This document shows, one piece after another, positions 4,016 through 6,684 of a stretch of 8,740 bases of DNA (its first letter is position 1; each line of letters begins with the position of its first letter). The position numbers and the translations under genes are program-made. Where the stretch lies: the NCBI GenBank assembly GCA_019911785.1, contig JAIOJM010000104.1, positions 1-8,740 on the forward strand, given 5' to 3'. The notes under the pieces were generated by a model. The model did not search any database, was not told where the DNA came from, and was given only the letters and a program-made list of their open reading frames with translations. The DNA comes from Sulfuricella sp. GTDB lineage: Bacteria; Pseudomonadota; Gammaproteobacteria; Burkholderiales; Sulfuricellaceae.

Positions 4016-5098
4016 TTATTCTTCCCCGCCCAGGGAGGCCAGTTGTTCCGCCTGGTGCTCGGACATCAGCGCGCCGACCAGCTCGTCCAGGTCGCCGTCC
4101 ATGATCTGTTCGATCTTGTACAGGGTGAGGTTGATGCGGTGGTCGGTGATGCGCCCCTGCGGGAAGTTGTAGGTGCGGATGCGCTCGGAGCGGTCGCCGC
4201 TGCCGATCAGCGATTTGCGGGTGGCGGCTTCCCTGGACTGGCGTTCGCGCAACTGCACGTCCATGATGCGCGCAGCCAGTACCGACATCGCCTGCGACTT
4301 GTTCTTGTGCTGCGAGCGGTCGTCCTGGCATTCGACCACGATGCCGGTAGGCAGGTGGGTAATGCGCACCGCCGAATCGGTCTTGTTGATGTGCTGGCCG
4401 CCGGCGCCCGAGGCGCGGTAGGTGTCGATCCTGAGGTCGGCGGGGTTGAGGTTCACTTCCGCCAGTTCGTCCGCTTCCGGCATGATGGCGACGGTGCAGG
4501 CCGAGGTATGGATCCGCCCCTGGGTTTCGGTCGCGGGCACGCGTTGCACGCGGTGGCCGCCGGACTCGAACTTGAGCTTGGAATAGGCGCCCTGGCCGAT
4601 AACCTTGGCGATGATCTCCTTGTAGCCGCCCATCTCGCCCAGGCTTTCCGACAGGATTTCCACTTTCCAGCGCTGCCTCTCGGCGTAGCGCGCATACATG
4701 CGGAACAGGTCGCCGGCGAACAGGGCCGACTCGTCGCCGCCGGTGCCGGCGCGGATTTCCAGGAAAATGTTGCGTTCGTCGTTGGGGTCCTTCGGCAGCA
4801 GCAGCTTTTGCAGGTCGATTTCAATCTGCGCCAGCTGTTCCCTGGCGCTGTTTGCCTCGTCCTCGGCAAACGCCTTCATCTCCGGGTCGGAGAGCATTTC
4901 CTGGGCGGTTTTCAGGTCCAGCTCGGCTTGCCGGAAGCGCTGGTAAAGCTCGACCACCGGCGTGATTTCGGAATGCTCGCGGGTGAGGCGGCGATAGCTT
5001 TCCATATCCGCCGTGGCGTCCTTGCTGCTCAGGCGCTGGGTGAGTTCAACCAGGCGCTCGGCAAGCTGGTCGAGCTTGGATTGAATGGATGGTTTCAT
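4016..5098 (-). CDS. prfA: Peptide chain release factor 1 (RF1)
   Basis: RF1 recognises UAA and UAG in the ribosomal A site and triggers hydrolysis of the finished peptide from the P-site tRNA. The 360-residue product is full length. The peptidyl-hydrolysis G-G-Q motif is at 233-235 in [12 protein letters not shown]. The stop-codon-reading P-A-T tripeptide, of the RF1 P-x-T type, is at 188-190, which separates it from RF2 (S-P-F). The N-terminal helical domain is intact. The start M-K-P-S-I is typical for the family. No good Shine-Dalgarno sequence precedes the ATG, and the inverted-repeat element at 5119-5223 ends only 20 bases upstream. The gene lies between hemA and prmC as in many proteobacteria and is probably transcribed from the hemA side. 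Confidence 0.97.
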
Positions 5099-5118: not shown

Positions 5119-5223
5119 ACCACGAATGACACGAATAGGCACGAATGAACACGAATTAAAAACTGTGAGATTGTCCGTGTCTTTTATTCGTGAATATTCG
5201 TGAACATTCGTGTTATTCGTGGT
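5119..5223. repeat. Inverted-repeat element with eight CACGAAT/ATTCGTG heptamers
   Basis: The hemA-prfA spacer holds two 38-base arms (5119-5156 and 5186-5223) around a 29-base centre. The left arm has CACGAAT at 5121, 5130, 5140 and 5150. The right arm has the complement ATTCGTG at 5186, 5196, 5206 and 5215. All eight heptamers are perfect, while the 2-3-base spacers between them differ; the arms match at 31 of 38 positions. Heptamers recur about every 9-10 bases, close to one DNA turn. As RNA the element would fold into a long stem with small internal loops at the spacers. No T-run follows, so it is not a standard terminator. It has the size of a small dispersed repeat, but no open reading frame or clear target-site duplication marks it as a transposon derivative. 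Confidence 0.85.
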
Positions 5224-5231
5224 CGGGATTT

Positions 5232-6482
5232 TCATTCCGGGTGTATGTGATACAGACGGCGCAGCAGCGCTTCGAGCTGGGCGCGGTCTTCTCCGCTGGC
5301 GTGGTTGAGGGCGTGGCTGGAGTCGTGCAGGAATTTGTTGGCGAGCGCCCGGCTCATCTGTTCGAGCACTTCGCGCGGGTCTTCTCCCTTGTCGAGCAGG
5401 CGCCTGGCGCGCTCCAGCTCATGGCGGCGCTGCCGCTCGGCGTGGTCGCGCAGGGCGCGGATGGTGGGCACGACGCTGCGCGTATCCATCCAGTGCATGA
5501 AATCTTCCACCTGAACCTCGATGATCGCCTCGGCTTCCTCGGCGGCCAGCTGGCGATTGCCGAGACCGGCCTGGATCACCTGGGCGAGGTCGTCCACGGT
5601 GTAGAGGAACACGTCGTCCAGCTCGCCGACCTCGGCCTCGATGTCGCGCGGCACCGCCAGGTCCACCATGAATATCGGCCGGTGCTTGCGCTGCTTGATG
5701 ACGCGTTCGACCAGGCCCTTGCCCAGAATCGGCAGGGGGCTGGCGGTGGAGGTGACGATGATGTCGTGGGTGGCGAGGTGGTCCGGCAGTTCGTTCAGGG
5801 TGATGGCGCTGCCGCCCAGCCGCAGGGCCAGCGCGCTGGCGCGCTCCAGGGTGCGGTTGGCGACGGTGATGTGCCTGGGGTGGTGCGCCGCGAAATGGTT
5901 GGCGCACAGCTCGATCAGCTCGCCCGCGCCGATGAACAGGACGCGCTGTTCGCTGATCGAGGGGAAGATGCGTTCCGCCAGCCGCACCGCGGCGGCGGCC
6001 ATGGAAACGCTGTTGGCGCCGATCTCGGTCTGGGTGCGGACTTCCTTGGCAACCGAAAAGGTGCGCTGGAACAGCTTGTGCAGCAGCGTGCCCAGGGTGC
6101 CGGCGCGTTCGGCGGTGTTCACTGCCTGTTTCAGCTGGCCGAGAATCTGGGTTTCGCCCAGCACCATCGAGTCCAGCCCGCTGGCGACACGGAAGGCGTG
6201 TTTTACCGCCTCGTCCTGCGGCAGGGTGTAGAGATGCGGCTCGATGGCCTGCTTTTTGATGTGGTGGTAGTCCGCCAGCCATTCGATGGCTTGTTGCGGG
6301 TTGTCGGTGTTGCAGTAGATTTCGGTGCGGTTGCAGGTGGAAAGAATCGCCGCCTCTTTCACCGGGCGGTGGCCGACCAGGTCGTGCAGCGCCTGTTCCA
6401 GGGTTTCAGCGTGGAAGGCGACCTGTTCGCGAACTGCCAGGGGCGCGGTTTGGTGATTGATTCCGAGGGTGAATAACTGCAT
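5232..6482 (-). CDS. hemA: Glutamyl-tRNA reductase
   Basis: HemA reduces glutamyl-tRNA(Glu) with NADPH to glutamate-1-semialdehyde, the first committed step of the C5 route to heme, siroheme and related tetrapyrroles. The 416-residue protein has the normal length and start ([14 protein letters not shown]). The catalytic cysteine is C50 in S-T-C-N-R-T-E. The [16 protein letters not shown] signature lies at 101-116, the NADPH-binding G-A-G-E-L-I at 185-190 and A-N-R-T at 208-211. A C-terminal helical dimerisation domain rich in Glu, Arg and Leu follows. The gene begins 126 bases after tRNA-Phe and leads hemA-prfA-prmC. No Shine-Dalgarno sequence is visible before the ATG, though the protein start is well supported by homology. 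Confidence 0.97.
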
Positions 6483-6608: not shown

Positions 6609-6684
6609 TGGTGGCCCGGGGCGGAATCGAACCACCGACACAAGGATTTTCAATCCTCTGCTCTACCGACTGAGCTACCGGGCC
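6609..6684 (-). tRNA. tRNA-Phe (anticodon GAA)
   Basis: The 76-base minus-strand gene folds as a complete tRNA. It has a perfect 7-bp acceptor stem (GGCCCGG with CCGGGCC), a D-arm GCTC/GAGC, and an anticodon stem GAGGA/TCCTT with loop TTGAAAA, so the anticodon is GAA for phenylalanine. The T-arm is GGTGG/CCGCC around TTCGATT. The discriminator base is A and the 3' CCA is encoded. It lies between the sensor kinase gene and hemA on the same strand, with its own promoter about 55 bases upstream. Confidence 0.97.

Follow-up and report, generated by a model that had tools for sequence, protein, structure and literature searches.

The closest described systems to the arrangement reported here are the REPIN/RAYT systems, in which, according to two accounts (PMC8266576; PMC3116915), a resident gene that is often vertically inherited is flanked by repeats, inverted pairs of which are also scattered through spacers without the gene, and enzyme and repeat co-evolve. 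The stretch of DNA analysed here (the window) comprises positions 1 to 8,740 of contig JAIOJM010000104.1 from Sulfuricella sp. (assembly GCA_019911785.1; 8,740 nt), and the element in question is an inverted repeat built from CACGAAT heptamers at 5119-5223, between hemA and prfA. We propose that this element is probably a gene-less member of a dispersed family of palindromes and that GxxExxY, a predicted nuclease, is the cognate enzyme that would recognise the heptamer and spread the elements in trans. We know of no role for GxxExxY, and its tie to the repeat gives this protein family a substrate, by probable recognition, as well as a test.

GxxExxY genes are associated with inverted heptamer arrays. 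A search of six related genomes (G001-G006) for PF13366 and for CACGRAT in tandem pairs showed one PF13366 gene, in G005, to be enclosed precisely by CACGAAT units, four forward on one side and four reverse on the other; the other six lay between inverted repeats of other short units (e.g. CGCAAAG, CGCGGAG) with arms 79-97% complementary. A set of 116 GxxExxY loci was drawn from the six relatives, 143 class-mates, 398 phylum genomes (some common to both) and eight plasmids. The relatives contributed seven loci, the class-mates 22 of 32 places (three that repeated G005 and seven partial places were left out), the phylum genomes 79 places (29 + 50, leaving out partial matches, places already in the set and one stop-bearing match) and the plasmids eight. 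The flanks of these genes were scored without reference to any motif, as the best inverted match between two 250-bp flanks (n = 115, L170 lacking the flank required). A score of 32 or more was reached by 77 of the 115 genes and by 4 of 428 control intervals taken at these loci, and 95 genes scored at least 25, where the 95% point of the control lies; an earlier form of this test, on 28 genes, used a cross-pair control that was inflated by shared units and was replaced by the 428 intervals. Most units at the 116 loci fit the form CRCRRAK and are spaced 8-10 bp apart; the form was derived from the same loci that it profiles, and the flank test is independent of it. On the inward strand its density was 22-34.5 per kb on each side within 50 bp of the gene and 1-2 per kb farther out, and on the wrong strand it was 0.7-1.4 per kb to the left and 4.5-5.2 per kb to the right. 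Chains of two or more units were present on either side of the gene at 87 loci and on both sides at 61, vs 7 of 220 control windows. Two later loci from viral contigs, read by eye, have the same layout, with units CACGGAT and CACAAAG/CACGAAG.

Inverted pairs are also scattered between genes without any gene of their own, and their type preferentially, with exceptions, matches that of the resident gene. CACGRAT pairs numbered 351 in G005 and one or two in each of its relatives G002, G004 and G006. In stretches of G005 (361,683 bp) and G090 that were selected for holding arrays, the dispersed elements have ends in common with those that bear GxxExxY: the G005 stretch holds six single arrays and 17 paired elements, of which 16 measure 75-151 bp and the remaining one, with GxxExxY, 463 bp, and the G090 stretch, with CACGAAG units, holds 14 paired elements, 13 in the range 96-287 bp and the other, which contains GxxExxY, 553 bp long. 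Seven paired elements of 64-126 bp were found in G004. Five tandem-pair patterns were counted in 43 hand-picked genomes (36 with typed genes and seven without a GxxExxY match). The seven held two pairs in total; in the 36, after a gene's own arrays had been subtracted, cells of the resident type had a mean of 23.6 and a median of 6 (n = 35) and other cells a mean of 4.5 and a median of 0 (n = 145; p = 2e-6, cells of one genome not being independent). Among the 143 class-mates, all five genomes with at least six CACGAAK pairs belonged to the 19 with a GxxExxY match (Fisher 2.5e-5, with the threshold of six chosen after the counts had been seen; rank test p = 0.003), and the 124 without a match held 41 pairs altogether, at most five per genome. 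The preliminary description of this DNA stated that similar repeats occur in many environmental genomes, which this survey bears out; it needs correcting in that the array does not stand alone, the ends of the family also bracketing a nuclease gene. One-sided tandem runs of 6-12 heptamers were also seen (G218 C51 1236-1350; G170 C1 232609-232695; G118 C16 13309-13360), as if arrays can expand; G118 has no GxxExxY match.

GxxExxY is a protein of about 127 residues, predicted to be a nuclease of the Cas4/RecB-like PD-(D/E)XK type, with at least 7,999 clustered relatives. The protein of locus L116 scored 132.4 bits against TIGR04256 (cut-off 35) and 126.3 against PF13366 (cut-off 22). The residues E, D, ExK and QxxxY of PD-(D/E)XK enzymes are retained, the fold also agrees with that of the class, and the only Pfam domain is PDDEXK_3. 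At L116 (1463-1480; P0001) the start codon lies within the left array and the protein therefore begins MNTN, a translated heptamer; the close relatives P0002, P0007, P0013 and P0022 have the same type of start. A search by sequence for a solved structure gave none (best E 0.93), and a scan of two GxxExxY proteins against the anti-phage defence models of PADLOC gave only weak matches, to REase_II, PDC-M02A and Cas4 (E 0.015-0.035). The L112 protein had no match among phage records, and 2.9 million viral contigs contained two relatives by one strict peptide pattern; GxxExxY therefore does not appear to be mainly a phage gene. In the open literature, GxxExxY, TIGR04256, PDDEXK_3 and PF13366 are scarcely mentioned, and in the accessible parts of these sources not in connection with repeats. 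Among the papers listed, that literature offers work on repetitive extragenic palindromes (REP), REPINs, miniature inverted-repeat transposable elements (MITEs), insertion sequences and stem-loops, none of it titled for heptamer-array elements; CACGAAT as a term returned nothing useful by title or abstract among the matches listed. The heptamer-array family is widespread and apparently undescribed, a novelty that is provisional because subscription journals lay outside the search.

The window element, its neighbours and a nearby tRNA gene are as follows.

5119..5223, no strand: core of the gene-less element, four CACGAAT heptamers and their four inverted counterparts on either side of a 29-nt loop, located by repeat and heptamer search
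5121..5156, + strand: left array, CACGAAT at 5121-5127, 5130-5136, 5140-5146 and 5150-5156, with spacers GA, AGG and GAA
5157..5185, no strand: 29-nt loop separating the arrays, with CACGGAC on the - strand
5186..5221, - strand: right array, CACGAAT at 5186-5192, 5196-5202, 5206-5212 and 5215-5221
4016..5098, - strand: prfA (peptide chain release factor 1), downstream neighbour, an open reading frame (ORF) named in the preliminary description
5232..6482, - strand: hemA (glutamyl-tRNA reductase), upstream neighbour, an ORF named likewise
6612..6684, - strand: tRNA gene adjoining hemA (Rfam)

The eight perfect CACGAAT copies in the window compare with 0.94 expected, and none of 200 shuffles reached eight. 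Start-to-start distances in each arm are 9, 10 and 10 nt, and over the 38-nt array 31 of 38 positions agree between the arms, with all seven mismatches in the spacers; a repeat search drew the element as 45-nt arms, 80% complementary, with 15 nt between them. It fills 105 bp of the 133-bp gap between prfA and hemA. The count of perfect heptamers and the arm match with its divergence in the spacers had both been noted in the preliminary description, as had the compact, modular and non-coding nature of the element, and all three were reproduced. At the gathering thresholds of Rfam there was no match at 5119-5223, the tRNA being the sole match in the window, and searches of plasmid and phage DNA for similarity to the element gave none. 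A GxxExxY ORF was not recognised in the list of window ORFs, part of which was scanned with profiles.

Relatives of the locus were found with the HemA protein, which shares 99% identity with the HemA of a Sulfuricella metagenome-assembled genome (MAG). Comparing the hemA-prfA spacer among relatives, as the preliminary description had advised, was informative. The CACGAAT element is present in L001 as in the window, with one unit changed; L002 has a single stray unit; L003 and L005 carry a CACGGAT version, which in L005 is interrupted by an insert; and the element is absent from L004, L006, L007 and L008, hemA and prfA overlapping in L006-L008 (read by eye). The window element is an insertion at this spacer, and is so called because the orthologous spacer of relatives is empty or differently filled. 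The CACGGAC in its loop may be what is left of an earlier element of the CACGGAT type, a hint that one element replaced the other or was nested in it. Four relatives likewise lack a second element, which is present in G005. The same genome also contains, at L163 (271-416, contig C13), a different repeat of about 130 bp with a hairpin of the form CCCTCTCCC...GGGAGAGGG; this too is an insertion, which G002 and G006 lack.

Between the window and L001, 1 of 56 heptamer positions differ vs 7 of 16 in the spacers (Fisher p = 5e-5) and 8 of 29 in the loop, with 34 of 1251 differing in hemA and 40 of 997 in prfA. The unit is therefore conserved about like a gene while the spacers drift, a comparison of one orthologous pair to which homogenisation could contribute. 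To that extent the earlier proposal that the heptamer is under stronger constraint than the spacers agrees with the data. The spacers are not wholly free. Within an element, the spacers on the left and right agree at 0.658, vs 0.443 between elements (2 of 2000 shuffles equal this), and in the 1.8-Mb MAG G003 (L271-L284) an element of about 170 bp with CACGGAT/CACAGAT units, conserved interior and conserved outer ends (CCTAAAAA...) has dozens of BLAST matches whose spacers and interior are held in common, so freedom of the spacers is untrue inside a family.

The two arms of an element resemble one another in the heptamer itself. For comparisons of arms and proteins, 85 of the 116 loci had at least three CRCRRAK units, or 78 once near-identical proteins had been removed. 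At the variable heptamer positions, left-right agreement was 0.881 within an element vs 0.544 between elements (none of 10000 shuffles). Heptamer similarity increases with protein identity, much of this trend being descent; loci at shared sites give the stronger evidence. Similarity of flanking DNA sorts the 116 loci into 63 groups, 51 of them singletons. The largest has 24 loci (eight CGCAGAG, seven CGCAAAG, two CACAGAG, one CGCGAAG, one CGCGGAG and five untyped), among them L112, L113, L114 and L195; the flanking ORFs of L195, the one locus of the group that was read, resemble trpD and trpC. Within site groups, the arms of one locus agree at 0.869 (n = 50) vs 0.738 between loci (none of 5000 shuffles), and both arms therefore tend to change jointly at a fixed place. 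At L252, on a plasmid of Sphingomonas parapaucimobilis, GxxExxY lies between annotated fabD and fabG and the inverted match extends into both gene ends; L239, L243 and L244 group with it, and the types in this group are CGCGAAG, CGCAGAG and CGCAAAG. The idea of an autonomous transposon hopping as a unit is weakened by the recurrence of the gene at common sites, trpD-trpC and fabD-fabG among them.

The favoured explanation, a dispersed family of palindromes served by GxxExxY, could work as follows. The ends of the family are inverted arrays of about three to four tandem heptamers of the form CRCRRAK, 8-10 bp apart. GxxExxY would recognise the heptamer from which its own arrays are built; since the units recur about once per helical turn, several copies may bind on roughly the same face of the DNA. 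It may then cut at or near the ends of the element, and such cutting would let gene-less copies spread or persist in trans at intergenic places, the hemA-prfA spacer being one example. Binding of the heptamer, cleavage, spread driven by the nuclease and the chemistry of insertion are steps that we infer from the arrangement of genes and repeats.

Several observations weigh against this explanation. The flank score was below 25 for 20 of the 115 genes, chained arrays flank the gene on both sides at 61 of the 116 loci and on either side at 87, and arrays in the wrong orientation occur at 8 of the 116 on the left and 11 on the right. After subtraction of a gene's own arrays, 4 of the 35 matched cells have no dispersed arrays and 15 have fewer than five, while 37 of the 145 unmatched cells have five or more. 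G003 has 79 CACGRAT pairs and no PF13366 match, G001 has 62 with a sole gene of the CGCAAAG type, and in G265, G325, G218, G347 and G353 CACGAAT pairs, 18-87 per genome, form a second array type for which there is no typed gene. Such array-rich genomes may be incomplete MAGs (G001 and G003 are MAGs of 1.8-2.0 Mb), may have lost the gene, or may reflect cross-recognition or a different mover. There is no clear target-site duplication: TTAA is the best direct match by 8 of the 17 G005 elements and lies inside the inverted repeat, and where a site is empty its flanks have diverged too far for a duplication to be read. GxxExxY is often at a site common to several species, as in the group of 24 loci, so the gene itself moves rarely.

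A correspondence between protein and repeat was also considered. Among 85 CRCRRAK elements, the position following the motif Glu is occupied by Ser where base 7 is G (66 of 66 cases) and by Lys, Gln or Arg where it is T (19 of 19); by eye, units outside this form pair Ala with A7 in L217, L219 and L223 and Gly with C7 in L235, and the two loci from viral contigs conform (Lys with T, Ser with G). Exceptions or doubtful cases are L117, L125, L129, L145 and L185. The match between residue 35 and base 7 is one change on the tree, which also counts against the favoured explanation; as both traits changed once, the code is no independent evidence and was rejected as independent proof. Base 5 compared with residue 14 yields four independent pairs with support, the direction being nearly always the same (p = 0.125). 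It is possible, and we suggest it tentatively, that GxxExxY serves as the enzyme of a novel class of mobile DNA, reading tandem heptamers by a simple residue-to-base code, with arrays and specificity co-evolving and palindromes seeded into operons across bacteria.

One alternative is that the arrays are operators rather than mobile ends: GxxExxY or a partner would bind them, regulating itself as well as a scattered regulon, and the copy in the hemA-prfA spacer would tune the expression of these two genes. The greater constraint on heptamers than on spacers, the phasing of units near one helical turn and the position of arrays next to the GxxExxY gene would suit this, as would the placement of the G005 elements, 15 of 17 of which are spanned by no ORF of at least 150 amino acids, most being within 60 bp of a neighbouring ORF. 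We nevertheless regard it as unlikely. GxxExxY keeps its nuclease residues and Pfam sees PDDEXK_3 alone, and the copies are polymorphic at orthologous spots and differ in number (351 pairs in G005 vs one or two in relatives), so spread fits better than a conserved regulon.

Another possibility is that GxxExxY is a passenger, one of several cargoes of arrays that another transposase moves. Some array-rich genomes lack a detected matching gene, and families like that of G003 resemble ordinary miniature elements in their conserved outer ends and interior. This possibility is nonetheless improbable in the light of the G005 and G090 stretches, where the sole gene-sized paired elements contain GxxExxY, and of the heptamer type, which follows the protein. 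A nearby Y1 transposase of the REP-associated type had been suggested in the preliminary description, and RAYT (Y1, PF01797) was tried as the mover and rejected: such genes are present in 12 of 12 genomes and 30 loci were returned, yet none of the 22 with usable flanks adjoins the arrays, in a search confined to this transposase family. That the window element is an RNA hairpin of the hemA-prfA transcript (terminator, attenuator or mRNA stabiliser) of incidental origin is highly improbable, as its predicted fold (-46.1 kcal/mol, z -8.15, none of 200 shuffles equally stable) and the above-chance agreement of left and right spacers within an element have to be set against a spot that is empty in four relatives and heptamers far more constrained than spacers, and stability is no evidence of function because any inverted array folds well.

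If the dispersed family is indeed served by GxxExxY, this would account for a repeat seen in many environmental genomes and would add a type of nuclease to the ways in which small DNA elements spread; to our knowledge no transposon family uses a PD-(D/E)XK nuclease of the GxxExxY type. In its fold and active-site pattern GxxExxY resembles the Cas4/RecB-type PD-(D/E)XK nucleases and Hjc resolvases, but it is a stand-alone protein of 127 residues between repeat arrays, and its neighbours at L116 are ABC-transporter genes rather than cas or recombination genes. The heptamer-array elements are, like MITEs, short, gene-less, palindromic, multi-copy and mostly intergenic; they differ in that their ends are tandem-heptamer arrays, the gene-bearing form encodes a predicted nuclease and target-site duplication is not clear. 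BrickBuilt of Porphyromonas gingivalis (PMC4596501) likewise places tandem units in an intergenic miniature inverted-repeat element, although its units are 23 nt without spacers and its abstract names no nuclease partner. The REPIN/RAYT systems differ in their enzyme, RAYT being of the HUH/Y1 type and GxxExxY of the PD-(D/E)XK type, in having single hairpins where the ends here are tandem-heptamer arrays, and in that 0 of 22 tested Y1 loci were bracketed by such arrays. They share with the present family a gene flanked by repeats that also occur gene-less, inverted and scattered in spacers, and we propose a comparable arrangement here, in which a resident nuclease gene would be held between its arrays and gene-less inverted arrays, such as that between hemA and prfA, would be recognised in trans.
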